A stretch of DNA of 34,347 nucleotides from an uncultured Actinomycetes bacterium (GTDB taxonomy: Bacteria; Actinomycetota; Coriobacteriia; Coriobacteriales; Atopobiaceae): positions 1-34,347 of the forward strand of contig ONMP01000029.1 of assembly GCA_900318935.1 (NCBI GenBank). The letters run 5' to 3'. How positions within the stretch are numbered: position 1 is the stretch's first letter; every line of letters begins with the position of its first letter. The translations under genes and the position numbers were made by a program. Positions 14,070-33,838 of this stretch are shown here, piece by piece. The notes under the pieces were generated by a model. The model had not been told where the DNA came from and made no database searches. It saw only the letters and a program-made list of their open reading frames with translations.

Positions 14070-14390
14070 GTGCCGATCGATTACAAGGTCGAGGTCCAGC
14101 CCCTTGCGCTGCGTGACATGGAGGAGATTGTCTCCTATGTTGCCGGCGAGTTGAAGAATCCGCCAGCCGCTCAGCGACTGGCGGAGGAGCTTGTCGCGGG
14201 CATGAAGTCCCTTACTCACTTGCCATCTCGCTGCCCGATGCACGTTCCCGTGCGACCCCTTAAACACGAGTATCGAAAGCTGGGAATGGGTAATTACCTA
14301 GTGTTCTTTAGGGTGTCCGAGAAAAAAGAGGTAGTGACCGTCGCACGAGTGCTGTACGGCCGAAGGAGTTTGGATTCGCTTCTTGATTAA
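14070..14390 (+). CDS. Type II toxin, RelE/ParE superfamily
   Basis: 106 aa from GTG at 14070-14072. The fold signature is clear: YKVEVQPLALRDMEEIVSYV at the N-terminus, NPPAAQRLAEELVAGMKSL in the helical hairpin, YRKLGMGNYLVFFRV in the core and VARVLYGRRSLDSLL at the end. The VLYGRR ending is typical of ParE-like members. It is translationally coupled to the antitoxin. Its last 93 bp overlap, on the other strand, the extended 3' end of the large secreted protein gene. Confidence 0.9.
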   Translation: MPIDYKVEVQPLALRDMEEIVSYVAGELKNPPAAQRLAEELVAGMKSLTHLPSRCPMHVPVRPLKHEYRKLGMGNYLVFFRVSEKKEVVTVARVLYGRRSLDSLLD

Positions 14391-17204
14391 GGGCGGAACG
14401 GCGTGCCGTGAACGGGAAACTACGCCCAAGGAAAACCATTTGTGGTAGGCCCATAGGGCCTTGGAGAGGTCGACGAGCGCCGGCTCGCTGCCCGTGCCCT
14501 TAAGCGCGCCATACACGTAGGAGAGCGCGTCCAGCTTCACCTCGTAAGTGCCGCCGTTGAAGGACACGGTGTGCCCGTTGGCCAGCTTGGCCACGCCGAT
14601 GGGGCCAACCTGCACGTAGTACTTGTTGCCCTTGCCAATATGGACGAGACCAGCCTCGTTGCCGTCGAGCTCCACCTCGAGGGAGGAGGGGTCCTCGCAG
14701 GTGAAGTAAAGCCTGAGCGAGGTGTCGGAGTCGAGCAGCAGCGTGACGCCGGTGACGGCGAGGCCCTCGGGCCTGTCGCCCTCCGCGACAGCCCTGTGGG
14801 CGGCAACCCCCGACGAGGCGGCCGTGACATCGGGTAGCGCGTCGACGCCCTCGGGCAGCGCCGTGCCATACTTCCACCTGACGGCGTACGCGCAGTAGGT
14901 GTAGGTAGCCCTGACCTTGGCCTTCCACCCCTCGTCGAGCGGCGAGCCCTCGGAGAGCGCGTCCTGGCAGTACCTGTAGACGCTGTAGGTCATGGAGTCG
15001 CCCTCGAGCCGCTCTCCCTTGGAGTTGCGGAGGGCCAGCTTGTTTCCGTCCATGTCGTGCAGCGTCAGGGTGATGTCCTTGTCGGTCCTGATCGCGGCGA
15101 CGGGGTAGCTCAACTTGTACCTGCCCTCACCGTCCTTCTTGAGACCATCGAGCGCGATCTCCACAGAGCCCTGGGGGCCGTCCAGGACAGCCTTGGCTCC
15201 GCTGGTCACAACGTCGTCAGGCACGGAAAGGAAGAAGTTCAGCCCCAGCTCGCCGCCGAGCGTGACGTTCGCCGAGAGCACCGCGGCGGCATCCACGACG
15301 AGCGTGTACTCGACCTCGGCGGTCGCGCCCTCTACCGTGACCGAGGCGGTGTAGGTCCCCGCCTTCGTGGGGGCACCGTCAAGCACCGTGTCGCCCTGCT
15401 TGTAGACGATGGCGTCATCGTATTCGCCGGTGAACGCTTTGTCACCAGATATCGACAACGTAGCGGATTTGGGTTGGCCGTCCGTGGTGAGGTCTTCGGG
15501 CGCAGCAATGGTTAGGGTCTCGCTGGGCTCCAAGCAGACGCCCTCCGCAACGCCCTCACAGGTCGCGGTGATGGTCGCACCTTCGGCGGTGTAAGCCCAA
15601 GAATGGGCGTGGGGGGCATCAGCAGCATCAATCAAGACATCGTCAAGGCCAACGCCGTGCCCGTCGTTGGCGGTCGCCTTGAACCCGATCTGGACCATCT
15701 CCGTCAACACCCCATCAGGCAGGCCGAGCGTCAAATTCGTCCAGGACTCGTGCCCCTCGGTGGTGGAAAAGAGTTCTTCCCAAGCTTCTCCGCCTACACG
15801 GTAGTACACGCCGAACTCATCGGTGTCGCCAGCCCAGGAGCGATTGATGTACCAGAAATCCAGCGTCGCAGAGGCGAGGCCGCTCAAATCAAACTCGGGC
15901 GTGATGAGCCAGGCCTCACCGTCGCTCGATTCTTTTGCAATGAAGTTCTTTTCTCCACCGTGAGCACCCGTTGAAGAATCGCGATCGCCCGTGCCTACCT
16001 CCCAGCTATAGTCGCCGCTGATCGTCCAACCGTCGGGCAATTGGCCGCTTTCGCCACCCTCGCAGATGCTCGTGCCCCTTGCCCAGATCGCGATCAGGGT
16101 GACGTTACCCGTGATGGGGGTGGAGAAGTCAAACTCGTTGCCGTTCATAGTCCAGCACAGGAACTTGTACCCGTTCCTGGTCGGCATCGTCGGTGCGGTC
16201 GCGCACGCACCAGGAAGAACATACTGCGCGTCAATGACGCTGCCGCCGTTGGAATCGAAGTCCACGGCCCAGGCGTCGCTCCACTGAGCGGTGAAGATCA
16301 CATCCTCGGTCAGGGTGACGGGATCACCGGGCTGGGAGACGCTTTTGTCCACGCTGGACAGCCAGCCGGAGAAGGCCTTGCCCGTTGGGGGCGTGAAGCC
16401 GTAGCCGGGAAGAGTGATGGATTCGCCGGACGGAACCGTCATGGGCCCAGGCCCATCGCCCTCCGCCCCGCCGCCTTCGAAGCTGGCGGTGCATTCACGC
16501 AGAACCGCAAACGTGAACGGACTCTGCGACGTGCCGTAACCACCGGTGACTTCTACACCATACGGTGGGGTGGAGTCGCTGTCGGCAATATTAAGATTGG
16601 ACGATGAACCGTCAAAGTCATTTATCCCGAAAGCATGCTTACCAGACTCCTGCAGGTATCCATTGTATGCTAGCGTTTTCTCCCCCGTGAGCGAACCGGA
16701 GGTATTGTCACTATCGTCTGTTATGATGTAAGTATCATCAACCCCAAAGTTGATCGTATCGCCAATGGCGTATCGGTCTCCCTGCCTTATGACGGGTTTT
16801 CCATGCACGACCTCAAACTCGAAGGGTTGGCCGTATGAGCCGTCACCACTTCTAACTCTAATGCCAGTCGGCTTAGCACCGTTCGTGTCTCCAATGTAAA
16901 GAGTCCTACTACTGGAGTCTGTTCCGTAAAATTTCAAAACATTGAATTGGTGCTGTTGATGATTAGCCAAGTAAGTCGTCCATGTTAATTGATACTCGCC
17001 TGAAAGCGCGGTTGATTCTGCTTTTTGATCATCTGGACGTATGTAGCTCGCTTCTCCAAAATTGATCATGTCATCAATATTATATACTGCACCCACATGA
17101 ATCACGTCATCCGCGCTCGCCGTGGCGTCCATCGCCACAACGCAGACCATTGCGATGAAGAGCGACAGAAACACGCACAGCATTCTTTTCCCTGCTTGCC
17201 TCAT
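14298..17204 (-). CDS. Large secreted repeat protein with InlB-type and jelly-roll domains
   Basis: 968 aa. Signal peptide 1-31 (cut near SADD). Two tandem copies of an unrecognised ~95-aa domain follow (about 40-134 and 144-237; shared Y-I-D-x-I-N-F-G, G-x-x-F-x-F). Two InlB B-repeat-like units (about 238-308 and 309-375; ending FTAQW and IAIWA) lead to a 'choice-of-anchor J'/MAM-like jelly roll (about 376-535; AWLITPEFDLSGLASATLDF, GLDDVLID), an Ig-like domain and a C-terminal region near 650-910. No LPXTG or S-layer anchor is seen. The last ~45 residues read through a decayed palindrome (14417-14448) into the antisense of the toxin gene, so the natural end is probably near KWFSLG. ATG at 17204 follows GAAGGA. 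Confidence 0.85.
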   Translation of the reverse strand: MRQAGKRMLCVFLSLFIAMVCVVAMDATASADDVIHVGAVYNIDDMINFGEASYIRPDDQKAESTALSGEYQLTWTTYLANHQQHQFNVLKFYGTDSSSRTLYIGDTNGAKPTGIRVRSGDGSYGQPFEFEVVHGKPVIRQGDRYAIGDTINFGVDDTYIITDDSDNTSGSLTGEKTLAYNGYLQESGKHAFGINDFDGSSSNLNIADSDSTPPYGVEVTGGYGTSQSPFTFAVLRECTASFEGGGAEGDGPGPMTVPSGESITLPGYGFTPPTGKAFSGWLSSVDKSVSQPGDPVTLTEDVIFTAQWSDAWAVDFDSNGGSVIDAQYVLPGACATAPTMPTRNGYKFLCWTMNGNEFDFSTPITGNVTLIAIWARGTSICEGGESGQLPDGWTISGDYSWEVGTGDRDSSTGAHGGEKNFIAKESSDGEAWLITPEFDLSGLASATLDFWYINRSWAGDTDEFGVYYRVGGEAWEELFSTTEGHESWTNLTLGLPDGVLTEMVQIGFKATANDGHGVGLDDVLIDAADAPHAHSWAYTAEGATITATCEGVAEGVCLEPSETLTIAAPEDLTTDGQPKSATLSISGDKAFTGEYDDAIVYKQGDTVLDGAPTKAGTYTASVTVEGATAEVEYTLVVDAAAVLSANVTLGGELGLNFFLSVPDDVVTSGAKAVLDGPQGSVEIALDGLKKDGEGRYKLSYPVAAIRTDKDITLTLHDMDGNKLALRNSKGERLEGDSMTYSVYRYCQDALSEGSPLDEGWKAKVRATYTYCAYAVRWKYGTALPEGVDALPDVTAASSGVAAHRAVAEGDRPEGLAVTGVTLLLDSDTSLRLYFTCEDPSSLEVELDGNEAGLVHIGKGNKYYVQVGPIGVAKLANGHTVSFNGGTYEVKLDALSYVYGALKGTGSEPALVDLSKALWAYHKWFSLGVVSRSRHAVPPLIKKRIQTPSAVQHSCDGHYLFFLGHPKEH
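14417..14448. repeat. Decayed TACGCACA palindrome P7
   Basis: GAAACTACGCCCAAGGAAAA, then CCATTTGTGGTAG, closely matches P5 at 17386-17420 with a few substitutions and an inserted T. It overlaps the 3' end of the large secreted protein's reading frame. Confidence 0.6.
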
Positions 17205-17656: not shown

Positions 17657-19351
17657 ATGGCCGTCGTTCCCCCACGTCAGGTTGCAGTTCTGAGCCTGGC
17701 GAATTATGACGAGGTTGTTAAGACGGGAGGTCGGACTGTCGGAGAGGCCGCGCTCGAATCGCTTAGGAATCTCGCGGTCACCTGTGGCGTAGACCCGGGC
17801 TACATGCGCGCGATGGATGAAAGGACGCTGCTTCTGCGTCTGGACGAGCTGCCACACAAGGAGTTTCTTGCGGCTATACAAGGCATGGCTGCCAAAACGC
17901 GCCGTCTCGCAGCTCCCACCATTCCAGACCTCATGCTCAAGGTTCGAGTTGGAGCCATGAGCGAACGGGCATTGCGCTCACTGGTCAACGATGCCGCACG
18001 TGACCTTATCGCATACATGGACCACTTGGACCGACGCGCCGCGTTCCTTGCGGGTGACGAACTGGACATCTGGCAGCAGATGGGGTCGACGGACGTAGAC
18101 ATCATTTCGCACGAACAGCTCAAGTACTTCGACGCCTTCACCGGCATGCTAACGACTGAGCGCTTTTTGGATCTGCTGCAGTATGCGATAGATGATCCGC
18201 ACAGGCCGGAGAGCATGGCGATCCTGTACTTTGACATCGATGACTTCAAGTCTTACAACCGCACCTTCTCGCATGAGGATGGCGATGACTTACTCCTGTT
18301 TGTAGCCAGTCAGATCAAGGAAGCCTTCTCTGCCGACGTGATGGCCCACCTCTCGATCGATCGCTTCGCGGTGCTTTCGAGCAGTCCCGACATCGTTTCC
18401 AAATGCGCAAAGATTCACGCCGCGACTCGCGCATTTCGGCTGTCCTTTGCCCCAGAGGTCAAATGCGGCATATATATGCTTATGGATAAGACGGTCACAC
18501 CCTACGTGGCCCTCGACTGCGCGAAACTCGCCTGCGAGAGCATCAAAGGGCGCTACGACAAGACGTACTGTTACTTCGACGAGGACCACAAGGACCGCCT
18601 CTTTGTCAGACGATATGTAGCACATCATGCAGAGCGTGCTGTTGCAGACGGCTGGATACGCACCTTCGCGCAACCGGTCATAGACACTCGAACGGGTGAG
18701 CTCTGCGGTTTCGAGGCGCTCGCTCGCTGGGACGATCCCGAGCGTGGTCTCCTCGCTCCATTCGTGTTCATTCCCACACTTGAAGATGCGCGCCTCATCC
18801 ACAGACTCGACGTTTGCGTCGTGGACACGGTGTGTCGCCATCTGTCCAAGTGCCGTGCGCAGGGGCTGTCCCACGTCCCGGCGAGCATCAATCTCTCGAG
18901 ACTCGACTTCGACCTGTGCGACATTCTTGACGTGATTTCCACACTCTGCGACCGTTGGAGCATACCCCACGAGCTGCTTGCCATCGAGATTACCGAGAGT
19001 GCGCTGCAAGAGGGATCGAACCTTCGCGTCGAGATTGAGCGCTTCCGTGCTGCGGGATTCGAAGTGTGGATGGATGACTTCGGCTGTGGTTACAGCTCGC
19101 TCAACCTGCTCAAAGACTACGAATTCGACGTCCTCAAGGTCGACATGGAGTTCTTGCGCGACATGGAGACCAACGTTCGCTCAAAGAAGATCCTGCTGTC
19201 GGTACTGGAAATGGCGCGTAACTTGGGAATTCGAACACTTGTCGAGGGGGTTGAGACAAAGACCCAGCACGACTTCCTGCTTGAGGCGGGATGCGACATG
19301 ATGCAAGGCTACCTGTTTGGCAAGCCTGGGCCGTTGGAGCTCGGATTGTAA
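17657..19351 (+). CDS. Cyclic-di-GMP phosphodiesterase (EAL) with two degenerate GGDEF-like domains
   Basis: 564 aa, no transmembrane segment. Residues about 8-110 look like a very diverged GGDEF fold (VAVLSLANYDEV; MDERT where GGDEF should be). Residues about 160-310 form a second, clearer one (MAILYFDIDDFKSYNRTF) with SIDRF in place of GGDEF, so no cyclase activity is expected. The EAL domain (about 320-560) is complete: FEALARW, SINLSR, IEITES, MDDFGCGYSS, LKVDMEF, VEGVET and MMQGYLFGKP carry the metal and catalytic residues. It should hydrolyse c-di-GMP, with the degenerate domains as possible GTP or ligand sensors. ATG at 17657 follows GAGGAGG. Confidence 0.9.
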   Translation: MAVVPPRQVAVLSLANYDEVVKTGGRTVGEAALESLRNLAVTCGVDPGYMRAMDERTLLLRLDELPHKEFLAAIQGMAAKTRRLAAPTIPDLMLKVRVGAMSERALRSLVNDAARDLIAYMDHLDRRAAFLAGDELDIWQQMGSTDVDIISHEQLKYFDAFTGMLTTERFLDLLQYAIDDPHRPESMAILYFDIDDFKSYNRTFSHEDGDDLLLFVASQIKEAFSADVMAHLSIDRFAVLSSSPDIVSKCAKIHAATRAFRLSFAPEVKCGIYMLMDKTVTPYVALDCAKLACESIKGRYDKTYCYFDEDHKDRLFVRRYVAHHAERAVADGWIRTFAQPVIDTRTGELCGFEALARWDDPERGLLAPFVFIPTLEDARLIHRLDVCVVDTVCRHLSKCRAQGLSHVPASINLSRLDFDLCDILDVISTLCDRWSIPHELLAIEITESALQEGSNLRVEIERFRAAGFEVWMDDFGCGYSSLNLLKDYEFDVLKVDMEFLRDMETNVRSKKILLSVLEMARNLGIRTLVEGVETKTQHDFLLEAGCDMMQGYLFGKPGPLELGL

Positions 19352-19446: not shown

Positions 19447-20001
19447 CTATCCATAGATGCTGTAGTACTCCTCGGCCTTGGCTTCCGCCAAGCGTGAGCC
19501 GTTATGGCAGCGGGGATTGTCAAGGGAGCAGTTGCGCCGACAGGATCCGCAGGTAAAGCCGCTCAGATACTCTTCCAACGAGGGAACGTCAGCGACCTGC
19601 TCCTCTTGGTCAACATCCTGCGGCTCCGTTTCCTCCTGCTCTTCCCACACCACAGAATCGGAGCGTTCGGACGAGTCATCTGGCTCAGGCTGCGCCAGAG
19701 GCTCGCTTTGTGCGGTGGAGCTGGGGGACGTATGCTCCCTAGGCTCTACGCGTTTCATCGGCTTGACCCGCTCTGTCGGCTCGTCCTGAACCGATAGCTC
19801 TTCCTGCACCGTCGGCTCGTCCTGCACCGTCGGCTCGTCCTGCTTCGCCGACTCCGTCGCGCTGGGCGCTTCCCCTACGCCTTCAAGCGCTACCGCCGAG
19901 CTGTCAATAAAGCCCGCCACCGCAGTGCGCACACCCACATAGGACAGGCACACCACGCACCACACCGCCACGAAAGCCCGAATGATCTTGTTTCTTTGCA
20001 T
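19447..20001 (-). CDS. Membrane-anchored protein with QDEPT repeats and a Cys-rich tail
   Basis: 184 aa. One N-terminal hydrophobic helix (residues about 6-31) acts as signal or anchor. A long Pro/Glu/Ser linker follows, with short repeats (QDEPTVQDEPTVQEE, then SVQDEPTERVKP). The conserved-looking tail carries four cysteines spaced as CGSCRRNC...PRC and ends SRLAEAKAEEYYSIYG. The tail could bind an iron-sulfur cluster or another metal outside the membrane. It is divergent from the dehydratase-type operon at 20172 and may belong to that system. ATG at 19999-20001 follows GGAG; an ATG at 20013 is an alternative. The family is not recognised. Confidence 0.7.
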   Translation of the reverse strand: MQRNKIIRAFVAVWCVVCLSYVGVRTAVAGFIDSSAVALEGVGEAPSATESAKQDEPTVQDEPTVQEELSVQDEPTERVKPMKRVEPREHTSPSSTAQSEPLAQPEPDDSSERSDSVVWEEQEETEPQDVDQEEQVADVPSLEEYLSGFTCGSCRRNCSLDNPRCHNGSRLAEAKAEEYYSIYG

Positions 20002-20060
20002 CGCGTACTCCATCTCGAAGATATTCCTAGCTTCCCACGAACCATACCCCACGGACTTGA

Positions 20061-20121
20061 AACGGAGTTAAAGCCTCTAGCAGATTCTCCACACGCTAAG
20101 GCCCACGCCTTTAACTCGGTT
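20061..20121. promoter_or_regulatory. Inverted repeat in the divergent operon promoter region
   Basis: AACGGAGTTAAAGCC (20061-20075) and GCCTTTAACTCGGTT (20107-20121) are imperfect inverted repeats 31 bp apart, between the divergent starts at 20001 and 20172. The arrangement suits an operator, for example for the response regulator at the end of the operon. Confidence 0.45.
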
Positions 20122-20171
20122 TGAAGTTCGCTCGTTATGATGCCTTCGCACCAAAGGATTGGAGGTAAGCA

Positions 20172-21449
20172 ATGTCATACGAGAGCGAGTATTCGAAGGC
20201 GCTGCAGCGCATCTACGCGGCCAACACAGACGTGCCGTCTCTGCGCTATTTCTTGGATACGGCCGCAAACTGGCACGCATGCTTCGCCCATGACCCCAGC
20301 AACATGTCCCAAAACGCTCATGCGCATCCACTTGTTGTCATCCTCGGATACGGCATCCCCGAACAGCTCATCTACGCATGCAACACGACGCCGTGCTTCC
20401 TGCTGGGCGGAAGCCACGCGTCCTGCCAGTGGTCGGATGACGCCGTGCCCCGCGACAGCGATCCCGCGAGCCGATCCATCCTGGGATACGCCCTTAGACT
20501 CGCAGCACGCGCGGACATAGACCCGCTCTTTGTGGTGCCCGTCGCGAACGACAACATGCGAAAGATCGCCTATCACCTCAAGCAAGAAGGCCATGCGGTC
20601 CTGCCCGTCGACATTCCACCCGTGTCCACGAGTCCGTCCGCACAACAGGCGTGGGAGCATTCCACCGAGACGCTGGTCCAGACAGTCGCGCGTCACGTTG
20701 GGAGGCGAGTCACGGCACGGAGCCTTCGCAACGCAAACAAGTTTGTGGGCAGGGCACGGACAGCCATCCTGGACTTTGAGCAAAGCTGCGTGAAGTGTCC
20801 GGAGGTGCTCGACAGTGAGGCGCGTCTCCTCGTGACGAACAGCTATTACCAGACCGGTAACCTTGCCCAGTGGACGGCAGCGCTCAACGAGCTGACCGCA
20901 GAGATCCAAGCGCGTTACAAGACCATCGGACGCTCATGCATCACCGCGCCGCGCATCCTTGTCGTCGGCTCACCGATACTCTTTCCCCAGCATAAGGTGG
21001 CCGAGCTCATCAACGATGCGGGTCTTTTCACACTGGCGACCGTGGATGCCGCCAGCACGTCACGCTTTGCCAGCCTCAGCGCACGGGAGAGCTCGGGCGG
21101 CACGACGGCACTCATACGCGCCATTTCTCGCAAACACTACGGCTTCGACTCATCAAGCGCCTCGGTAGTGAACTGGGCCATGGAGCGCTACGTAGAGCAT
21201 CTCCTCAACTCGATGGAGGTGGACGGCGTCGTTTGCCACATCCTCAAGGGACAGATCGAATACGACTTCGCGCTTTCGCGCCTGGAGCCACTTTTTGACA
21301 GCATGGACATTCCCGTGTTCCGTCTCGAGACGGACTACCAATACCAGGACGTGGAGCAGCTGCGCATCCGCCTCGAAGCCTTCGCCGAGATGCTCGGCCA
21401 GCGCATGCTCGTTGCCAACCGCGCGCATGCGCGCCGCCGCTGCGCATAG
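20172..21449 (+). CDS. 2-hydroxyacyl-CoA dehydratase / double-cubane-type subunit lacking cluster cysteines
   Basis: 425 aa, homologous along its length to the downstream protein at 22627 and to the HgdB/benzoyl-CoA reductase/YjiM family (GYGIPEQLIYAC; ILVVGSPILFPQHKVAELIN; VVCHILKGQIEYDF; RLETDYQYQDVEQLRIR). At each position where the partner has a ligand cysteine this protein differs: YGIPEQ against YCVQVPQE, RDSDP against RDACP, ANDNMRK against TCDCKKR, LKGQ against LRGC. It therefore probably cannot hold the cluster in the canonical way and may be a structural or substrate-binding partner. ATG at 20172 follows GGAGG. It is the first gene of the operon. Confidence 0.85.
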   Translation: MSYESEYSKALQRIYAANTDVPSLRYFLDTAANWHACFAHDPSNMSQNAHAHPLVVILGYGIPEQLIYACNTTPCFLLGGSHASCQWSDDAVPRDSDPASRSILGYALRLAARADIDPLFVVPVANDNMRKIAYHLKQEGHAVLPVDIPPVSTSPSAQQAWEHSTETLVQTVARHVGRRVTARSLRNANKFVGRARTAILDFEQSCVKCPEVLDSEARLLVTNSYYQTGNLAQWTAALNELTAEIQARYKTIGRSCITAPRILVVGSPILFPQHKVAELINDAGLFTLATVDAASTSRFASLSARESSGGTTALIRAISRKHYGFDSSSASVVNWAMERYVEHLLNSMEVDGVVCHILKGQIEYDFALSRLEPLFDSMDIPVFRLETDYQYQDVEQLRIRLEAFAEMLGQRMLVANRAHARRRCA

Positions 21450-21467
21450 CAAGGGAGATGACGTTCG

Positions 21468-22622
21468 ATGAACAAGAAAGGCCTCATAACAGCCATAGTG
21501 TGTACGTTGATGGTATTGGTTGCCTACTTTGCATGGCAGTTCGTCTTCTTTGAGTATGAGACGAACGTCTACACGACCACCGCCGAGCAACTGTTTACGA
21601 TCGACCACCTGACCAAGCTCGTGCCGCTCCTGATCATCGGCCTGCTCACGGCCATCGGCATCGTAGCGTGCATCGTGGTCCGCAACCACCTGATGCGCCA
21701 CGACACCCTCCGCGGCCCGTTTGCAACACGACGTGCGCCGTCCTCCAAGGGGCGTGTGCGTGGCCGACGCGTCTCCGCCTTCATGGTGGTGCGCTGGGTC
21801 TGCATGGTGGGCTTTTTTGCGCTCATGGTGTTCGGCGGCGTGCTGCTTGGGCAGCGTTACTCGTGGATCAGCATCCCCGTTCTGTCGTGTCCCGCCAACA
21901 TGTCCCAGCTCACTGAGGCGAGTTGCTACTACCTCGCTCACCTCGAGGAGCTTGCCGGCCTGCCGCTGATGGGCATCGTTGTCTTTGTGGTCAGCACGCT
22001 GGGGTTCGTCCTCGTGTTTGGCAGGGTGCTCTGCGGCTTCGCGTGCCCCATGGGCCTCGCCCAGGACGTCATGCACAAGATTCGGCAAGCGACCAAGGTC
22101 GAGGGCATCTCCATGACCGAGCGGATGTACCAGGCACTCGTACCGATACGTTGGGTCATGCTGCTCCTGATGATTGGTCTCAGCTTCGTCGGCGGCAACT
22201 TCTGCAATTTCTGCCCGGCGATTGCCCTCACGCCCGTTGCCGCAGGCCTCTCCGTGAGCCTGTATGCAAGCGGCTTCCTCATGGTCTTCGTCCTCATTGC
22301 CAGCTTCTTCAAGCGCCGCTTCTTCTGCACGATCTGTCCGCTTGGCTACCTTATGGGGCTGGCGCACCGCGTCCAACCGTTCCGCATCAAGAAGGACTGC
22401 ACCGCATGCACCGAGTGTGGCGCGTGCTACGAGGCCTGCCCGATGGGCATCAAGCAGCTCTATACCGAGCGCGAGCAGACAGACGTGACGGACATCTCGT
22501 GCATCATGTGCGGCGAATGCGTGCGGTGCTGCCCCGAGGACCACGCACTTTCGCTCACCCTTTTGGGGAAGGACATCTACATCTCCAAACGCTCAAGAGT
22601 CGTCGAAGGATACAGGAGGTAG
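21468..22622 (+). CDS. NapH-like membrane-bound 4Fe-4S ferredoxin
   Basis: 384 aa. About five transmembrane helices (including residues 8-27, 47-70, 105-130, 160-190, 225-285). The NapH/YccM/NosR-type motifs GRVLCGFACPMGLAQD and FFCTICPLGYLMG carry the CxxxCP cysteines. The C-terminal ferredoxin domain has two clusters, CTACTECGACYEACPMG and CIMCGECVRCCPEDH. Such proteins pass electrons from quinones or membrane donors to redox partners. Here it lies between two dehydratase-type genes and before the activase, so it is the likely electron entry point. ATG at 21468, 18 bp after the previous gene. Confidence 0.9.
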   Translation: MNKKGLITAIVCTLMVLVAYFAWQFVFFEYETNVYTTTAEQLFTIDHLTKLVPLLIIGLLTAIGIVACIVVRNHLMRHDTLRGPFATRRAPSSKGRVRGRRVSAFMVVRWVCMVGFFALMVFGGVLLGQRYSWISIPVLSCPANMSQLTEASCYYLAHLEELAGLPLMGIVVFVVSTLGFVLVFGRVLCGFACPMGLAQDVMHKIRQATKVEGISMTERMYQALVPIRWVMLLLMIGLSFVGGNFCNFCPAIALTPVAAGLSVSLYASGFLMVFVLIASFFKRRFFCTICPLGYLMGLAHRVQPFRIKKDCTACTECGACYEACPMGIKQLYTEREQTDVTDISCIMCGECVRCCPEDHALSLTLLGKDIYISKRSRVVEGYRR

Positions 22623-22626
22623 GGTC

Positions 22627-23928
22627 ATGGCATACGCAGACGTCGCACAGGAGCAACGCGAGCAGCGACGCAGACAGCGCTTCGCAACCAAGTCCATGCA
22701 CATGACGCAAAAGTACCTGCGCCGCATGCGCGACCTTGGCAGCACGCTGGAGCAGATGGAGCCTTTCTTCGATACACTGGAACGTATCTACGTGCAAGGC
22801 CTGGACGTGGAGCGGCCGCGCTCCACAAAGACGGTGGGAACGTACTGCGTGCAGGTTCCCCAAGAGCTCATCTATGCCGCCGGCGCTCGTCCGGTCAAGC
22901 TCTGCAGCGGGCACTACACGGCCTTTTCCATCGGTGACGACGTGGTGGCGCGCGACGCATGTCCACTCGTGAAAGCGATTGCCGGGTTCGAGCACATGGG
23001 CACGCTGCCCCTCTACGAGAACTGCTCGCTCATGGTGGTGCCCATCACCTGCGACTGCAAGAAGAGAATCGCCGGCCTCCTTAAGGAGAAGTGGCCTGTC
23101 CACCCGCTGTATGTGCCCGCAAACCGGGAGGACGAAGACATCGAGCACTACGTGGACGATCTTTACCAGCTCATGCACATGGTCTCGCACGTGACTGGCC
23201 AAGATGTCACGTACGAATCACTCGCAAACGCGCTCAACCTAACGGGACGTGCCCAATACGAGCTGTCGCGCTTCCTGCGCATAAAGCGCACCACGCCCAA
23301 TCTGCTGTACGGCACGCATGCGATGGCCGTTATGAACGCATCGTCGTATCTCGACGCTGGGGTGTGGGCAAGCGCAATGGGCGCGCTCAACGACGAGCTC
23401 GAGCGCAGGGCGCATGCCAACAAGCTCGTCTCGCGCAAGGACCTGCCGCGCATCATGCTCACGGGGTCGCCGATCGTCTTCCCCAACCTCAAGATTCCCC
23501 TGCTCATCGAGGAGGCCGGCGGCATGGTGGTCGCCGACGAGACCTGCATGGGGGAACGCGGCATGTCCGACCCGGTCGTTCCCGTAGACGCGTCGTTCGA
23601 CGGGCTCATGCGCTCGCTCGCCATCCGCTCGCTGCGACCTTGCCCGTGCCCCACCTTTGCGGACAACTCGCAGCGCATCTACCGACTCCGTCAGATGGTG
23701 CGCGACTACCGCGTGGAGGGCGTCATCTACCACGTGCTGCGCGGATGCCTGGTCTACGACTACGAGTTCCGCCTCGTAGAAGAGGAGCTCGAGAGCATGG
23801 GCATTCCCGTCATCCGCCTCGAAAGCGACTACACCGACCAAGACGTCGAACAGCTGCGCATTCGCTCGGAGGCGTTCGTGGAGACCATCAAGCTCAAGAA
23901 GGGACCGCTCAAGGCCAATCGAGGCTAG
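22627..23928 (+). CDS. 2-hydroxyacyl-CoA dehydratase / double-cubane-type subunit with intact cysteines
   Basis: 433 aa. It carries the full cysteine set of the family: GTYCVQVPQELIYAAGA, VARDACPLVKAI, MVVPITCDCKKRIAG, DETCMGERG and YHVLRGCLVYDYE, with the C-terminal RLESDYTDQDVEQLRIR. In characterised relatives these cysteines hold a [4Fe-4S] or double-cubane [8Fe-9S] cluster driven to very low potential by an ATP-dependent activase. The substrate is unknown; no CoA-transferase or acyl-CoA gene is nearby. ATG at 22627 follows AGGAGGT. Confidence 0.9.
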   Translation: MAYADVAQEQREQRRRQRFATKSMHMTQKYLRRMRDLGSTLEQMEPFFDTLERIYVQGLDVERPRSTKTVGTYCVQVPQELIYAAGARPVKLCSGHYTAFSIGDDVVARDACPLVKAIAGFEHMGTLPLYENCSLMVVPITCDCKKRIAGLLKEKWPVHPLYVPANREDEDIEHYVDDLYQLMHMVSHVTGQDVTYESLANALNLTGRAQYELSRFLRIKRTTPNLLYGTHAMAVMNASSYLDAGVWASAMGALNDELERRAHANKLVSRKDLPRIMLTGSPIVFPNLKIPLLIEEAGGMVVADETCMGERGMSDPVVPVDASFDGLMRSLAIRSLRPCPCPTFADNSQRIYRLRQMVRDYRVEGVIYHVLRGCLVYDYEFRLVEEELESMGIPVIRLESDYTDQDVEQLRIRSEAFVETIKLKKGPLKANRG

Positions 23929-23980
23929 GCGCGGTCCGAAGCGGCGCACGGCCACGAAGTCGTGCTGGAACGGAGGAAAC

Positions 23981-24769
23981 ATGAAACGGTACTACATAGG
24001 ACTGGACGGCGGCTCGACCTACCTCAAGGCGGCTATGATCGACGAGCGGGGCAACGTCATCGACACCATGGTGCGCAACACGGGCATCGACAACAGCGGT
24101 ACCGCGAGCGCCCTCGTCGACACGCTCTGCCAGCGCAGCCAGATCACGGACCGGCAGCTGGGCTACATCATGGCGACAGGCTACAGCCGCAAGGTGCTCG
24201 ACGTGGCAGACGATGATATCAGCGAGATCACCGCCCATGCGTATGGCGTGCGCATCACCGCCCCGCCGCAATGGCGACCGGGCATGATCGTCGACGTGGG
24301 CGGACAGGACAGCAAGATCATCTATCTGGACGCCAACTACACCGTGAAGAACTTCTCGATGAACGACAAGTGCGCTGCGGGAACGGGCAAGTTCATGGAG
24401 GTCATTGCGCAGATTCTCGAGACGACCATCGATCAGGTGGGGCCTTTGTCACTCCAGAGCACCGAGCCGTGCGACATCAACTCCACCTGCGTGGTGTTCG
24501 CACAGTCGGAGGTGATCTCGCTCGTCGCGCGCAAGTACGACCGGCGCGACATACTCGCCGGCATGCACCTGTCCATGGCGCGGCGCATCATCAAGATGAT
24601 GCGCAAGTCAGAGAAGGGCGGCGACGTGCTGATGAGCGGCGGAGGCGCATTGAACGTCGGGCTTCGCCAGGCCTTTGAGGAAGAGCTCATGCAGGACGTG
24701 TACGTAGCCGCACACCCCCAGTTCAACGGGGCCATCGGCGCGGCGCTCATAGGGTGCGAAAGGGGATAA
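23981..24769 (+). CDS. ATP-dependent acyl-CoA dehydratase activase (BadF/BadG/HgdC family)
   Basis: 262 aa, a full-length activase of the ASKHA fold. Phosphate loops: GLDGGSTYLKA (residues about 7-17) and VDVGGQDSK. The cysteines that bridge the homodimer's [4Fe-4S] cluster are in NDKCAAGTGKF and STCVVFAQSE. GGGALNVGL and GAIGAAL complete the nucleotide site. It hydrolyses ATP to fire electrons into the dehydratase-type subunits encoded upstream. ATG at 23981 follows GGAGG; its stop overlaps the next gene's alternative start (TAATG). Confidence 0.94.
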   Translation: MKRYYIGLDGGSTYLKAAMIDERGNVIDTMVRNTGIDNSGTASALVDTLCQRSQITDRQLGYIMATGYSRKVLDVADDDISEITAHAYGVRITAPPQWRPGMIVDVGGQDSKIIYLDANYTVKNFSMNDKCAAGTGKFMEVIAQILETTIDQVGPLSLQSTEPCDINSTCVVFAQSEVISLVARKYDRRDILAGMHLSMARRIIKMMRKSEKGGDVLMSGGGALNVGLRQAFEEELMQDVYVAAHPQFNGAIGAALIGCERG

Positions 24770-24771
24770 TG

Positions 24772-25464
24772 ATGGGTCTCACGCTGTTGTTGGAGGGCGT
24801 CTCGGTTGCGACGTCGGTGGGGTTGGGTTGCGGCACCTGTTGTGGGTCGGGCGCTGGGATTCTGCTCTCGGGCTACGTCATGACGCACGCACGCAACGCG
24901 CGGCAGTCGATGATTGCCTTCCTCTCATTCTATCTCGGCAAGGTTGCAAGCGTCGCCGCGCTCTGCCTCGCAGCTTCCCTCGTTGGCCAGTCGGGGTTTT
25001 TGCAAGGTGAGCTGTTTGCCGCAGGGTGGGTCAATCGCGCCTTCGACCTGTTCATCATCGGCATGGGGATCTATTTTCTATACGGCTGGGTGCAAGAGGC
25101 GCGCGGCGACAAAGTGTGCGGAGAGCAATGCCGCGACCACCACAAGATGCGCGAGGCTGTGGAGGGAGGCATTCACATCCCGGCGCTCTTCTTGGCTGGT
25201 GCCGGGTTCGGCATCTCGCCGTGCGCTCCCCTGCTCATCGTAGCGGGCCTGTGCGTGACGCTTCCGGTGGGCTTTGCGGTGGTGACCGGCGCAACCTTCG
25301 CATGCGCCAGCATCGTCTCGCCGCTGTTGCTCGTCTTGCTGCTCTCGGGAGTCCTGACCACGCGCATGCACAAGGAGATTCCCGGCATGCTTCGGTGGTT
25401 ACGCCTCGTGTGCTATTTTGGGATGATTGCGTTCTATATCTTTGACCTGGCGCAGACGTTCTAG
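24772..25464 (+). CDS. DsbD_2/UreH-like six-helix membrane protein
   Basis: 230 aa. About six transmembrane helices, with cysteine motifs at helix starts (GLGCGTCCGSGAG near residue 17, and FGISPCAPLL about residue 145), the pattern of the cytochrome c biogenesis/DsbD transmembrane family and UreH-like proteins. A cytoplasmic or external loop has a further VCGEQCRDHH. It may move reducing equivalents or a metal across the membrane. ATG at 24772 is 6 nt after AGGGG; ATG at 24769, overlapping the activase stop, is an alternative. Confidence 0.75.
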   Translation: MGLTLLLEGVSVATSVGLGCGTCCGSGAGILLSGYVMTHARNARQSMIAFLSFYLGKVASVAALCLAASLVGQSGFLQGELFAAGWVNRAFDLFIIGMGIYFLYGWVQEARGDKVCGEQCRDHHKMREAVEGGIHIPALFLAGAGFGISPCAPLLIVAGLCVTLPVGFAVVTGATFACASIVSPLLLVLLLSGVLTTRMHKEIPGMLRWLRLVCYFGMIAFYIFDLAQTF

Positions 25465-25473
25465 GGAGTCATG

Positions 25474-26154
25474 ATGAAGCTGCTCTTTGCGGAAGACGAT
25501 CCGGACATCGTGCGGGGAGTCACCATACTGCTCCAGCGAAGCGGCTATACCGTGGACGCGGTAAGCAATGGGAGGGACGCTCTCAACCATTTGATAAACG
25601 GCGACTACGACGCCGCCATTCTCGACATCATGATGCCGGGCCTGAGTGGCCTCGAGGTACTCAAGGAAATCAGACGGCGAGGCATGGGGCTGCCCGTGAT
25701 GATGCTCACCGCTCTGGGCGAGCTCGACGACCGCGTCACGGGCTTCGACAGCGGGGCCGACGACTATCTGCCCAAACCGTTCGCGGGCAAAGAACTGGTC
25801 TCGCGTGTGCGAGCGCTCCTTCGCCGGGCCGAAACCTTCACACCGGACGTGGTCTCGTTCGGTGACGTGCAACTGGATAGCGGGACCTACCAGCTGACCT
25901 GCGGCACAAAGAGCACGCGCCTTGGGAACAAATGCTTCCAAGTCATGGAGATGCTCATGCGCAACCCCAGCAAGATCGTGAGTGCCGACGAATTCATGTC
26001 CCACATATGGGGATGGGATTCCGAGGCGGAGATCAATGTGGTGTTTACCAACATCTCCTATCTGCGCAAGAACCTCGCGAAGATAGGCTCCGAAGTCAAG
26101 ATTCGCGTCGTACGCAATGCCGGATATCTCCTTTCGTACGGGGAAGAGTCATGA
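25474..26154 (+). CDS. OmpR/PhoB-family response regulator
   Basis: 226 aa. The receiver domain has the acidic pair EDD near the N-terminus, the phospho-acceptor Asp in AAILDIMMPGLSG, the Thr in MLTALGE and the Lys in YLPKPF. A C-terminal winged helix follows (SADEFMSHIWGWDSEAEINV, RVVRNAGYLLS). ATG at 25474 suits the GGGAG spacing better than ATG at 25471. Its stop overlaps the kinase start (ATGA). It probably controls this operon in response to the cognate kinase. Confidence 0.95.
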   Translation: MKLLFAEDDPDIVRGVTILLQRSGYTVDAVSNGRDALNHLINGDYDAAILDIMMPGLSGLEVLKEIRRRGMGLPVMMLTALGELDDRVTGFDSGADDYLPKPFAGKELVSRVRALLRRAETFTPDVVSFGDVQLDSGTYQLTCGTKSTRLGNKCFQVMEMLMRNPSKIVSADEFMSHIWGWDSEAEINVVFTNISYLRKNLAKIGSEVKIRVVRNAGYLLSYGEES

Positions 26155-27518
26155 GCGACTCCGTGATCAAGCGACTGAGACGAAAGATCGTCCTTGTATC
26201 GATTGTGGCGGTGTTCCTGTCGCTTCTTGTCTTGATATCTGCCATAAACTACGCGCACTACCTGCAGGTCGACGCAAATCTTCACCGTGCGCTCACCGAG
26301 ATCGCAAGCGAGAGCGGCACGGGCTTCGACGCCGACCAGCGATTCCAGGGAGGCGGGAGCGATCAGCAGCTCCCCAAACAGGATGTCGAGGACGGCCAGC
26401 ACGTTGCGGGGCAGGACGGCATGCAGGCGCCGGACTCTGAGCTCGATGCCTTGAAGCGCATGGAGCACGGCGGGCGCAAGTCCGCGCGCACACAGTACGG
26501 CAGTCGCTTTTTCTGCGTACTTGTGGCCGAGGACGGCAGCGTGTACGTAAAGAGCCGGGGGGATGGCGAGCTTGCCGATGAGTACGCCCGTCAACTCACC
26601 CAGAGCGCCCTCGGTTTGGGAAAGCCGGAGGGGTATCTGGATGACTACAAGTTTTTGGTCGACGAGTCTGCAGCTCAAAGAAGGGTCTTTTTTCTCGACT
26701 GCACTACAGACCTGGAGGCCTTGCGACAGCTGCTTATGGTCGGGCTTATCGTCGGCGGATGCGCGTTTGTCATCGCCTCGCTCTGTATGGTTCGCCTCTC
26801 CGACCTCATCGTGCGACCTCTGGAGGAAAGCGCGCGAAAGCAGAAGCAATTCGTCGCGGACGCCGGGCACGAGCTCAAGACTCCCCTCTCCGTCATAGCG
26901 ACCAACATGGACATCCTGGAGCTGGACCTTGCGGACCAGCCCGAGGAGCAGGAGTGGATTGACAGCACGAACCGCCAAGTCAGCAACATGAGGCAGCTCG
27001 TCAACGACCTGATCGTCCTCTCAAAGATGGAGGAGCAGGAGGACGACGTCGTGCTCTGCGACGTATCACTGAGCGACACCGCATTCGAGTGCATCCAGAC
27101 CTTCTCGCAGATCGCCATCGCACAAGGCAAGAAGCTCGTGTCATCGATTGAAGAGGACGTGCGCGTGAGGGGCGACGAGCCTGCCATACGGCAGCTCATG
27201 CAGATCCTCGTTGACAACGCCATCAAATATGCGACGGGCGACAGGACGATTTTGGTGGAGGTGACGAAGGCAGGCCGCACCGCCGTGTTTGCAACGCGTA
27301 ACGACTGGGCGCACGACGTCGAGTCGCGAGAGCTCTCGACGCTCTTCGACCGGTTCGTGCGTGGAGAGCGATCGCGCGACCGCTCGGGAGGCAAGGTCGG
27401 CTACGGCCTCGGCCTTTCGATCGCGCGGGCAATCGCCGAAAAGAACGACCTTAAGCTCGAGGTGGACGAGGACGACGCAGGCAGAATCGTCTTCCGCGCT
27501 CTTTTCCCCGCCCGATGA
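26151..27518 (+). CDS. Sensor histidine kinase
   Basis: 455 aa. Two transmembrane helices (about residues 13-36 and 185-210) bracket an extracytoplasmic sensor of about 150 aa with a Gln/Asp-rich linker. A short HAMP-like linker (RPLEESARKQKQFVADAGHE) leads to the H box (HELKTPLS). The N box (ILVDNAIKY) and the G box (YGLGLSIARAI) of the ATP-binding domain follow. The D/F region (FDRFVRGERSRDR) is intact. ATGA overlap with the response regulator gene. The signal is unknown; by context it may be the substrate or redox state of the reductive system. Confidence 0.95.
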   Translation: MSDSVIKRLRRKIVLVSIVAVFLSLLVLISAINYAHYLQVDANLHRALTEIASESGTGFDADQRFQGGGSDQQLPKQDVEDGQHVAGQDGMQAPDSELDALKRMEHGGRKSARTQYGSRFFCVLVAEDGSVYVKSRGDGELADEYARQLTQSALGLGKPEGYLDDYKFLVDESAAQRRVFFLDCTTDLEALRQLLMVGLIVGGCAFVIASLCMVRLSDLIVRPLEESARKQKQFVADAGHELKTPLSVIATNMDILELDLADQPEEQEWIDSTNRQVSNMRQLVNDLIVLSKMEEQEDDVVLCDVSLSDTAFECIQTFSQIAIAQGKKLVSSIEEDVRVRGDEPAIRQLMQILVDNAIKYATGDRTILVEVTKAGRTAVFATRNDWAHDVESRELSTLFDRFVRGERSRDRSGGKVGYGLGLSIARAIAEKNDLKLEVDEDDAGRIVFRALFPAR

Positions 27519-27908: not shown

Positions 27909-28199
27909 TCAACGGAAGAGCTCGTCGTGTGAACCCGTGCGCTGGAAAACCGCGAGCCCGTTTCCCGTCTTCCAAATCACAAGCCAGTCGCTTGCGTTTG
28001 CGACATGACACTCGTTGCTACCCGACCAAGCGCCTTTCAGCGAATGCATGTTATGGTGCTGCTGCAGTATGAGCTTCGATTCTTCGGTGTCCTCAAGGAT
28101 AAGGTCGACTACCTCGGCAAGGGGCGCGATCTCGTAGTGTTTCTTTACGAGCGCTTTTACATCGCGCTCGTATTTCGAGGTATACAGGGCTTGCAGCAT
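27909..28199 (-). CDS. yafQ: Type II toxin, YafQ/RelE family mRNA interferase
   Basis: 96 aa. The N-terminus LYTSKYERDVKALVKK and the core LKGAWSGSNECHVANASDWL match YafQ. The residues known to be needed in E. coli YafQ are present in order: His in ECHVA, Asp-Trp in SDWLVIW, His and Phe in GSHDELF. It would cleave translating mRNA. Its ATG (28197-28199) follows directly on the antitoxin stop, so the two are co-translated. Confidence 0.93.
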   Translation of the reverse strand: MLQALYTSKYERDVKALVKKHYEIAPLAEVVDLILEDTEESKLILQQHHNMHSLKGAWSGSNECHVANASDWLVIWKTGNGLAVFQRTGSHDELFR

Positions 28200-28469
28200 C
28201 TACAGCCCCATCGCCTTGAACATCTCCGCTGCCGAGCTGTAGCCGGGACCGCCTGCAGCAATAAGTTCGTCGGCCTCACGAATCGACTCCAGGGATTCGG
28301 CGTTGGGCTCGGGGTTAGAAAGGTTAAGGGGAATTCTGTTCTCGCGGATCATCTGCTTATAGAATGCGCGCGTTACAGAAGAGAGGTCGAAACCGAAATA
28401 CTCCGCGATGCGCGAGGCACCTTCCTTGATGTCGCTATCGACCCTGATTGTCACTGACGACGCAGCCAT
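28200..28469 (-). CDS. dinJ: Type II antitoxin, RelB/DinJ family
   Basis: 89 aa. The ribbon-helix-helix N-terminus reads SVTIRVDSDIKEGASRIAEY, then FGFDLSSVTRAFYKQMIREN, and the C-terminus is the toxin-wrapping tail (PNAESLESIREADELIAAGG). ATG at 28467-28469 follows GGAG. It precedes the toxin, as is standard for dinJ-yafQ, and should autorepress its promoter. Confidence 0.94.
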   Translation of the reverse strand: MAASSVTIRVDSDIKEGASRIAEYFGFDLSSVTRAFYKQMIRENRIPLNLSNPEPNAESLESIREADELIAAGGPGYSSAAEMFKAMGL

Positions 28470-28585
28470 ATTATCTCCAATTCTCGAATGTAGTAACAAT
28501 GTAAGTATATTGTCTTGCTCAACTCCATTCAAGGCGAAATGACTCATGCGGCCGGGGATAGTGGGGACGGGCCATCGCGAGTGCG

Positions 28586-28903
28586 CTACAGGATGTCCCA
28601 GTTTTCCACGAGATAGCGGTACTTATCCATCTCGAGCTGGTACTCCTTGCTGCTGGGCCCAAACTGAGCGTACACCGCAACCGAAGACGCGATGTACACT
28701 TCTCCCGCCTCTTCCCTGCTCATTCCAGACTGCTTCGCGTTGGCGATCACGGCCTTCATCTCCTTGGCTACGGCAGCTGGGTTGTAGGCGTTCGGGTCAT
28801 ACCCGCCGACGATGCCATCGAGCAGCTCATCGGAGACCTCGAAGCTGGCGCGATTCTGGCTCGGTTGCTGGGCAAGCCCCTCTTTGCTCGGCTTTTCTGA
28901 CAT
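28586..28903 (-). CDS. Small protein with a Gly-Gly leader-like motif
   Basis: 105 aa. The N-terminal third is charged and contains SFEVSDELLDGIVGGYDP, which looks like the ELxxIxGG leader of NHLP/bacteriocin-type precursor peptides. The remaining ~65 residues are helical with tyrosines and no cysteines (MKAVIANAKQSGMSREEAGE). It could be a leader-bearing peptide exported after cleavage at GG, or an ordinary small regulator where the motif is chance. No transporter or modifying enzyme is adjacent, though a methyltransferase lies divergently at 29155. ATG at 28901-28903 follows GGGAGG at 5 nt, so it is certainly expressed-looking. Confidence 0.7.
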   Translation of the reverse strand: MSEKPSKEGLAQQPSQNRASFEVSDELLDGIVGGYDPNAYNPAAVAKEMKAVIANAKQSGMSREEAGEVYIASSVAVYAQFGPSSKEYQLEMDKYRYLVENWDIL

Positions 28904-32152: not shown

Positions 32153-32497
32153 ATGTCAGTAAGCGCGAGCGAGGTCGAGAAGATGGAGGCCTCGAGGAAG
32201 GCGGCCGCGAGGAGGCGCTACACCGAGGAGTTCAGGGTCGAGGCGGTCCAGTACTATCTGAAGGCGAGGGAGCTGGATCCCAAGAAGACGATCAGGGGCT
32301 GCGCGAGGGAGCTCGGCCTGAACGACAAGACCCTCAACGACTGGATCCTGAAGTTCGGAGACCAGGGCAAGGTGACGCGCGGCAGGACCGACGAGCAGAG
32401 GGCCCTCGACGAGGCGAACAGGCGTATCAGGGAGCTCGAGCTCGAGAACGAGTTCCTAAAAAAAGCGGCAGCCTTCTTCGCCAGGAGCCAAGCGTAG
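32153..32497 (+). CDS. IS3-family transposase OrfA
   Basis: 114 aa. A helix-turn-helix (RRYTEEFRVEAVQYYLKARE; CARELGLNDKTLNDWILKFG) is followed by a leucine-zipper-like coiled coil (ELELENEFLKKAAAFF), as in IS3-group OrfA. A run of seven As (32458-32464) before GCG is the classic -1 slippage site that would join OrfA to OrfB; reading -1 from it leads directly into the OrfB frame. Confidence 0.9.
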   Translation: MSVSASEVEKMEASRKAAARRRYTEEFRVEAVQYYLKARELDPKKTIRGCARELGLNDKTLNDWILKFGDQGKVTRGRTDEQRALDEANRRIRELELENEFLKKAAAFFARSQA

Positions 32498-32514
32498 AGG
32501 ACAGGCACCGGCTG

Positions 32515-32912
32515 ATGCTGGAGGAGAGGGCGAATTTCGGCGTGGCCATGATGGCGCGCGCGCTCGGGGTGAGCAGGAGCGGGTTCTACAGGTGGCTGAA
32601 CGCGAGGCCGGACGGCGCGGACCCGTGGGCCGGCCTCAAGGAGGCGATGCTCGGGATATGGAGGGCGAGCAAGGGGAGGTTCGGCTTCCGCAAGGTGCAC
32701 TCGAGGCTCGCCGCCGACTTCCCCGAGTTCGCGGGCACGACCCGCTACCGCGTGAGGAAGTACATGCGTGAGCTGGGCATTCGCGGAAGGTGCCCCAACG
32801 CCTCGAGGACGACGACCGTGCCGGACGAGGGCGCGCCGGCCAGGCCCGACCTCGTCCGCCGCGACTTCGAGAGCCCCGTGCCCACCTACAAGCTCGTGGG
32901 CGACAGCTTCAG
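32515..32912 (+). pseudogene. IS3-family transposase OrfB, 3'-truncated
   Basis: The frame begins with MLEERANFGVAMMARALGVS and continues through the HTH_21 region (SRSGFYRWLN; GRFGFRKVHSRL) to PTYKLVGD, where the integrase core (usually 'DITYL...') should start. From there the sequence is foreign and the frame soon ends. No catalytic residue remains, so the element cannot move by itself. Confidence 0.88.
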
Positions 32913-33147
32913 ACGTAACCAAAATGTCACCACGTTCTATTTCGTCTGGCATCCACTTTCTATACAAAGCCGCATCAACGAATCGAATTGCATCTGGTTG
33001 CACGATAATACCTGTTTTGATGTTTTTTGCAGATAAGGCTCGATAGCCAGCTTCCGCCCAGTTTCCGCCAAGTTTTGCGGGTGTTTTACCACGATGATCT
33101 ATGCAGAGTGTTATGCAGTCCCCAAGAGGCAGCGTCTTAAAGCCCAT
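32912..33147 (-). pseudogene. hsdS: HsdS (type I restriction specificity subunit), 3'-truncated by the IS3 remnant
   Basis: About 79 codons from ATG at 33145-33147: MGFKTLPLGDCITLCIDHRG, then YRALSAKNIKTGII and RGDILVTSEA, the start of the first target-recognition domain. The next residues (normally APLGEV) are replaced by antisense IS3 sequence. The start overlaps the end of hsdM (ATGGGCTTTAA). No functional specificity subunit can be made from it. Confidence 0.8.
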
Positions 33148-33838
33148 ACCCGATCGCCTCCAAGTTCTTCCGAATCTGCTCTTGCAAGCGGTTCGACTCC
33201 TCGAAGCACTTGGCAAGCTCGCCGGTCAGACGTGCCATCTTTTCCTCGAAGGGCTCACCGTCGTCCTCCTCGTCCCTGATGCCTACGTAGCGGCCAGGCG
33301 TGAGGATGTACTCCTGCTTGGCGATGTCCTCGATGTCAACGGCCGCGCAAAAGCCCTTCTCGTCTTCCAGCTCGCCCCTGCGGAAGGCGTCGAACGCCTT
33401 GGCTACTTTGGCAATGTCCTCGTCGGTGAACTCGCGCAGCCTGCGACTCACCATGGTGCCCATCTCTCGAGCGTCAACGAAGAGCGTCTTGCGCTGACGA
33501 CCTGGCTCCTTGCTTATGATCCAGAGGCTCACGGGGATACCCGTGCTGTAGAAGAGGCGGTCCGACATGGCAACGATACCCTCGACCAGCCCCGCCTCGA
33601 CGATGGCCCTGCGGATGCTTCCCTCGTTGTTCGTCTGCGAAGACAGTGAGCCATTGGCAAGGACCATTCCCATGTGTCCGCCCTGCGCAAGGTGGTGAAT
33701 CATGTGTTGCATCCAGGCGAAGTTCGCGTTGCCAGCAGGCGGCGTTGCGAACTCCCACCTCGGGTCCTCGGTCAGCTGGTCACCACCCCAGTCCTTCATG
33801 TTGAACGGCGGGTTAGCAAGTACAAAGTCTATCCCTCT
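33137..33838 (-). pseudogene. hsdM: HsdM (type I N6-adenine methyltransferase), 5'-truncated
   Basis: About 233 codons remain. The adenine methylase motif IV, ANPPFNMKDWGG, is at the upstream end, followed by FAWMQHMIHHLA, GGHMGMVLANGSLSS and a C-terminal coiled coil (EKMARLTGELAKCFEE). The first half, with the HsdM N-terminal domain and SAM motif I, is missing; a 31-nt-arm inverted repeat lies just upstream. It overlaps hsdS by 11 bp. Confidence 0.82.

Follow-up and report, generated by a model that had tools for sequence, protein, structure and literature searches.

The window analyzed here, a 34,347-nucleotide stretch (positions 1 to 34,347 of contig ONMP01000029.1, GenBank assembly GCA_900318935.1), belongs to a metagenome-assembled genome of an Atopobiaceae (Coriobacteriales) genus from ruminant gut that is 88% complete. 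Positions 20172-27518 are an operon, and we lean toward the reading that it encodes an ATP-driven reductase in which two homologous double-cubane-type subunits form a heterodimer with a single cluster, placed on a transmembrane redox relay and most likely acting on a small non-CoA substrate. The two subunits, for which the names DCCa and DCCb are coined here, are PF06050 proteins encoded on the plus strand at 20172-21449 (DCCa, the cluster-less paralogue, 168 bits) and 22627-23928 (DCCb, 278 bits), on either side of a NapH-like membrane polyferredoxin (21468-22622; Fer4_5 and Fer4_9). Downstream on the same strand are an activase, which is an ASKHA ATPase of the HgdC/DCCP-R type (23981-24769; TIGR00241), a DsbD_2/CcdA-like membrane protein (24754-25464; PF13386), an OmpR-type response regulator (25471-26154; Response_reg plus Trans_reg_C) and a sensor histidine kinase (about 26142-27518; HisKA plus HATPase_c) having two transmembrane (TM) helices and an extracytoplasmic sensor region of about 160 residues. 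From DCCa to the kinase the genes are spaced by 4-52 bases or overlap. An earlier interpretation made from the letters alone (the sequence-only reading) had described two homologous dehydratase-type proteins around a membrane ferredoxin, followed by the activase, a DsbD_2-like protein and a two-component system, and each of these genes is present at the coordinates it gave. It did not include TAIL, a divergent gene (19447-20052, minus strand) for a membrane protein with a tail of four cysteines (Cys4), which by the cysteine motif of its homologues and its linkage to the operon is part of the same gene set and shares an operator region with the operon.

The [8Fe-9S] cluster of BzdN, a subunit of class I benzoyl-CoA reductase (BCR), is held by six cysteines, and the archetype of such proteins is DCCP (PMC11971306). 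Alignment of C. hydrogenoformans DCCP with BzdN gave six ligand positions as the cysteines common to both. DCCb has cysteine at all six (C74, C112, C142, C307, C341 and C374) whereas DCCa has G59, D97, N126, A293, S328 and Q361. When 78 DCCa and 64 DCCb proteins were aligned, every one of the six positions was cysteine in 64/64 DCCb proteins, whereas the complete set was found in 0/78 DCCa proteins, and no cysteine was invariant anywhere in the DCCa alignment. The DCCa substitutes are themselves fixed at four positions (G59 in 77/78, D97 in 78/78, S328 in 75/78 and Q361 in 78/78); position 126 is serine, asparagine or, in 12 cases, cysteine and position 293 is variable, with cysteine in five proteins. 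Fifteen positions are at least 95% fixed within both families yet carry different residues, four of the 15 being cluster-ligand positions, and 43 residues are fixed identically in DCCa and DCCb, many of them within a C-terminal block. DCCa is under purifying selection: within the genus its dN/dS is about 0.18-0.23, compared with 0.07-0.10 for DCCb. Given the universal DCCb cysteines, the fixed DCCa substitutes and the DCCa dN/dS value, the cysteine asymmetry is neither chance nor decay. The sequence-only reading had seen that the canonical cluster cysteines are kept in the protein starting at 22627 and substituted in that starting at 20172, and the same now holds across both families. Note that the two peptides used to find loci, ETDYQYQ and H[AE]SC[QAR]WSD, give biased values for their own conservation and that all six ligand positions lie outside them.

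An AlphaFold2 model of DCCa built from the DCCa alignment (pLDDT 88.8) was closest to 6eno (Z 39.4 over 386 residues, 2.5 Å, 19% identity), followed by the DCCP:DCCP-R complex and then by subunits of the HadC, BzdN and MbdN types (Z 32-37), with the HadB and BzdO types at Z 25. In this model DCCa is a full-length member of the DCCP fold whose cluster site appears to have been emptied. DCCb matches C. hydrogenoformans DCCP by phmmer with an E value of 1.7e-64. Both proteins failed the DCCP equivalog model NF040772 (cut-off 350 bits), DCCb scoring 307.8 and DCCa 143 bits. The likeness to the C. hydrogenoformans DCCP/DCCP-R system (PDB 6eno, 7yyl) is that DCCb aligns over its full length with the six cysteines, DCCa has the same fold and a cognate activase adjoins. 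The systems differ in that both subunits fall outside the DCCP clade and have the NapH-like protein, DsbD_2 and the Cys4 tail protein as near-constant neighbors.

An ordinary (R)-2-hydroxyacyl-CoA dehydratase (HAD) or BCR with a degenerate second subunit would have the same Pfam family and activase type, and HAD and BCR are likewise asymmetric heterodimers. Nevertheless, we consider such an enzyme highly improbable. The NCBIfam HadC, BzdN and BcrC models gave only 48-85 bits on DCCb, far under their cut-offs of 421-700 bits. In a tree of 96 proteins, in which long branches and an arbitrary root leave the deep order unsure, DCCa and DCCb each formed one group (support 99) that excluded C. hydrogenoformans DCCP, the single-gene DCCPs of Coriobacteriia and Clostridia, E. 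coli YjiM, BzdN, HadC and MbdN, the C. hydrogenoformans protein grouping with the other single-gene DCCPs. Neither subunit is placed by this tree within any characterized acyl-CoA clade sampled, and because of the long branches and arbitrary root we limit the claim to a position outside those clades. No CoA-transferase or acyl-CoA gene was found in the conserved neighborhood of 79 loci (described below). The sequence-only reading, which had noted the lack of such genes and set the system apart from fermentative 2-hydroxyacyl-CoA dehydratases, is borne out on both counts: tree and neighborhoods gave neither the placement of both subunits in an acyl-CoA dehydratase clade nor the accompanying substrate gene set that would have spoken against it. 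The cluster sites also differ. BzdNO and MbdNO resemble the present pair in being heterodimers derived by duplication, with [8Fe-9S] in one subunit (BzdN) and an ATP-driven activase, but BzdO keeps a catalytic [4Fe-4S]-OH2 site on three cysteines of which DCCa retains none, and the benzoyl-CoA gene set is missing here. HadBC/HadI likewise consists of two homologous subunits plus an archerase-type activase, but HadB and HadC each have a [4Fe-4S]-type cluster, their substrates are CoA esters, and both clade and gene set differ.

A scan of one genome per species (84,980 species) with DCCa alone as query identified 79 loci distributed over Coriobacteria and Clostridia, the hosts including the genus of the window, Ruminococcus albus and other rumen Ruminococcus, Parasporobacterium, Blautia, Anaeromicropila, and Acetobacterium wieringae, A. 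dehalogenans and A. fimetarium. As the loci were picked by DCCa alone, partner genes are not present by construction. In the 55 loci having at least 5.3 kb downstream of DCCa, the NapH-like gene was found in 54, DCCb in 53, the activase in 53, DsbD_2 in 52, TAIL in 48 and the cognate response regulator in 24. The TAIL gene lies downstream in 24 loci; in another 14 it is upstream and codirectional, and in 10 it is upstream and divergent. Within the genus DCCa and DCCb are both present in 9 of 16 genomes and both absent in 7. One genus member lacking DCCa has a lone TAIL remnant (L191:8350-8916, genome G159) that is 73% identical over the tail and has a disrupted N-terminus, suggestive of loss of the operon. 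Of 391 Clostridia sampled, four have a true DCCa. Full-length TAIL was confined to three of the four within this sample, the remaining one having its DCCa on a 3.5-kb contig.

We favor the one-cluster heterodimer because DCCa and DCCb are the sole PF06050 proteins of this genome and of 6 of 8 other hosts. The asymmetric pair of the sequence-only reading is supported, being conserved together with the activase and the membrane ferredoxin, whereas the complex itself we infer from gene linkage, the lack of other partners and family precedent. Several points weigh against our interpretation. DCCb could form a homodimer; the census figures come from related sequences rather than independent events; gene conservation stops at the edges of the module and so genome context gives no clue to the substrate; and the structure model of the NapH-like protein is poor (pLDDT 51.6), was excluded from the fold search and leaves the closeness of the outer cysteines discussed below unproven. 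In a homodimeric arrangement DCCb would be a normal DCCP, and DCCa, its redox function lost, would serve apart from it in regulation, as a chaperone or in cluster assembly. This would agree with C. hydrogenoformans DCCP, which is homodimeric and has one cluster in each subunit (PMC11971306), in contrast to the present pair in which one partner is devoid of cluster ligands. It would also agree with DCCa evolving about twice as fast as DCCb. However, DCCa keeps the full fold and the 43 residues shared with DCCb, only two loci with enough flanking sequence (L099 and L107) have DCCa without DCCb, and the duplicate pairs known in the family (HAD and BCR) are heterodimers. We thus think the homodimer quite unlikely.

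The remaining conserved proteins are those expected to deliver or carry electrons. The activase passed TIGR00241 (207.1 bits, cut-off 125.4), and its cysteines are conserved in 58/58 (C131) and 57/58 (C164 and C170) proteins. The NapH-like protein failed TIGR02163 (72.3 bits, cut-off 213) and hence is called NapH-like rather than NapH. Hydropathy and charge predict six TM helices with strictly alternating loops, the two [4Fe-4S] ferredoxin motifs and the Fer4_5 cysteines lying on the cytoplasmic side. Four extra cysteines (C141, C153, C246 and C249), present without exception in 70/70 proteins, are predicted to lie in the two outer loops. An outer loop carries an inserted domain of some 200 residues, with only weak DUF4198/CarboxypepD_reg similarity, in 18 loci (for example, L060:10239-12056, L091:10214-11998 and L114:10227-12053, plus 15 more). 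The Fer4_5 cysteines and C-terminal dicluster ferredoxin are those of the NapH/NosR/CcoG-type polyferredoxins, which differ from the present protein in its score below the NapH cut-off, its four extra outer cysteines and its hosts, which mostly lack menaquinone genes. DsbD_2 passed PF13386 (30.2 bits, cut-off 24.9) and has four invariant cysteines (C26, C30, C126 and C157; 54/54), of which C26, C30 and C157 are those looked for in the first TM region and the GxxPCAP region.

TAIL consists of one N-terminal TM helix, an acidic linker and a C-terminal C-x2-C-x3-C-x6-C motif (residues 168-182 of the 201-residue frame, the true start of which is probably near 20004) that is present in 49/49 homologues. 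By charge the protein is oriented N-in/C-out and thus the Cys4 tail is predicted to be extracytoplasmic. Neither the window protein nor its homologues gave a Pfam match. The Cys4 domain recurs once or twice at the C-termini of DUF4405/cytochrome b561-like membrane proteins of four other Clostridia (L187:6444-7760, L188:8113-8931, L189:6941-7993 and L190:7096-8190), which do not have the DCC module. We regard it as a putative, as yet unnamed, recurrent redox domain, and the b561-like fusions fit a role on the outer face. An anti-phage role for TAIL was discarded; the PADLOC match was weak (23 bits) and covered the N-terminal region and acidic linker rather than the Cys4 tail, and was taken as compositional.

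A second form of the module, which we call type II, is found in two Clostridia (L167:6622-11091 and L168:6562-10805) and consists of DCCa', a small protein with two TM helices, a short NapH', DCCb', the activase and a divergent Crp/Fnr regulator. DCCa' is 25-30% identical to DCCa and retains G, D and Q at three of the fully or nearly fixed sites, and the type II proteins join their respective counterparts in the tree (support 99 and 90). E. coli NapH and NapH' both lack C141, C246 and C249, and an apparent match to C153 in type II is probably a misalignment. Neither DsbD_2 nor TAIL was found in the two type II modules, and thus the three outer NapH cysteines, DsbD_2 and TAIL are missing jointly and the core is DCCa-NapH-DCCb-activase. 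A gene for a hybrid-cluster protein (Hcp) lies near the L167 module but is absent at L168, and hence no link to nitrogen oxides is claimed.

The sequence-only reading had suggested that electrons may enter from the membrane through the NapH-like protein. In the usual sense of quinol input this is weakened. No MenD above cut-off was found in 16 host genomes (the near miss, in Ruminococcus sp. YE71, scored 238 of 244 bits) and MqnA was found in only one of the 16; the genus of the window lacks MqnA and has no MenD above cut-off. With these genes missing in nearly all hosts checked, quinol feeding through the NapH-like protein is unlikely in most of them, and reduced ferredoxin is the likely donor. 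The extra NapH cysteines on the outer face together with DsbD_2 and the Cys4 tail mean that flow could also be outward. If so, the DCC pair and activase could be an ATP-driven pump with the NapH-like protein as outlet, the outer cysteines, DsbD_2 and TAIL passing electrons to an extracytoplasmic acceptor and no cytosolic substrate being involved. The invariance of the outer cysteines, the thiol carrier, the optional extracytoplasmic NapH domain and the improbability of quinol as donor all agree with such export. On the other hand, DCCa, NapH and DCCb persist in type II modules that are devoid of DsbD_2, TAIL and most of the outer cysteines, so the core functions in their absence, and the DCC clusters of relatives pass electrons to bound substrates or to a partner cluster. 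We judge export unlikely. The more specific version, in which the one-cluster heterodimer drives very-low-potential electrons across the membrane along a NapH-type Fe-S wire to the outer cysteines in mostly quinone-less fermenters, seems rather unlikely also.

Returning to the ATP-driven heterodimeric reductase, we picture its action as follows. DCCb would carry the single [8Fe-9S] cluster, and DCCa, a duplicate that lost all of the cluster ligands but kept the fold, would be its obligate partner, shaping a polar pocket and an asymmetric docking face. By analogy to DCCP/DCCP-R, HAD and class I BCR, the homodimeric activase would use ATP hydrolysis to push single electrons onto the DCCb cluster. 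The NapH-like protein would hold two [4Fe-4S] clusters on the cytoplasmic side beside the activase and may connect these through the membrane to its outer cysteines, to DsbD_2 as thiol carrier and to the TAIL Cys4 domain. The reaction would most likely be reduction of a small molecule that is not a CoA ester. Neighboring genes were tried as a guide to the substrate and failed, there being no conserved neighbors beyond the module in the 79 loci.

In the published account, the superfamily of class I BCR, HAD and DCCP has lost clusters stepwise, DCCP having two of the [8Fe-9S] type, BzdNO one together with a [4Fe-4S] cluster, and HAD smaller ones; what DCCPs do biologically is described there as unknown (PMC11971306). 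DCCa would be a further step of loss, a partner without the ligand set that is conserved in two phyla together with a fixed set of membrane redox proteins and a regulator. With the module, the role of a DCC enzyme can be addressed in hosts that grow in culture (Ruminococcus albus, Acetobacterium and Anaeromicropila), and two uncharacterized redox parts are defined, one being the site made of the four outer cysteines of the NapH-like protein and the other the Cys4 tail domain. Judged by title and abstract, the double-cubane literature contained no published match to the module layout, and no expression report naming the module in R. albus or Acetobacterium was found in the literature searched. 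The isoprene reductase of A. wieringae was set aside, as it is a different protein that is flavin- and Hyp-linked.

The operator region between TAIL and DCCa (20055-20127) contains two mirrored operator-like repeats, a left copy on the plus strand at 20055-20073 (ACTTGAAACGGAGTTAAAG) and a right copy on the minus strand at 20109-20127 (ACTTCAAACCGAGTTAAAG). Both read ACTT-AAAC-GAGTTAAAG, a direct repeat with an 11-bp period. Regulators of the OmpR/PhoB type bind direct repeats of this period. A relaxed form of the pattern occurs only twice in the 34,347 bases, both times between TAIL and DCCa. Within the genus the right copy is present in 9/9 members and the left copy in 6/9, and a mirrored pair is also found upstream in Anaeromicropila L098, where the divergent arrangement and the regulator match those found here. 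Beyond the genus, most Clostridial loci had no match to the motif in their upstream regions. The mirrored pair thus makes it likely that the TAIL gene and the operon are one putative regulon, which in the genus the two-component system would switch through this operator. The signal-regulated character given to the operon by the sequence-only reading is supported by the operator conserved in the genus, but the two-component system is attached in only 24 of the 55 loci. Model names assigned to the response regulator (RppA, heavy-metal) were under cut-off and were not used.

The genes flanking the module are of several kinds. Immediately 3' of the operon is a RelB/YafQ-type toxin-antitoxin pair (27909-28508, minus strand), followed by a small protein (28586-28903, minus strand) that has no Pfam match and a double-glycine-like leader (ELLDGIVGGYDP) and is possibly a peptide precursor. 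Farther on, pieces of an IS3-type transposase (32153-33799, the second frame being short) adjoin a truncated N6 DNA methylase frame. On the 5' side a 968-residue surface-type protein with a Listeria-Bacteroides repeat and a MAM-like domain (14298-17204, minus strand) precedes a GGDEF-EAL protein (17657-19351, plus strand), an 88% identical homologue of which lies on the opposite side of the operon, 3' of the kinase, in L034 (16014-17705).

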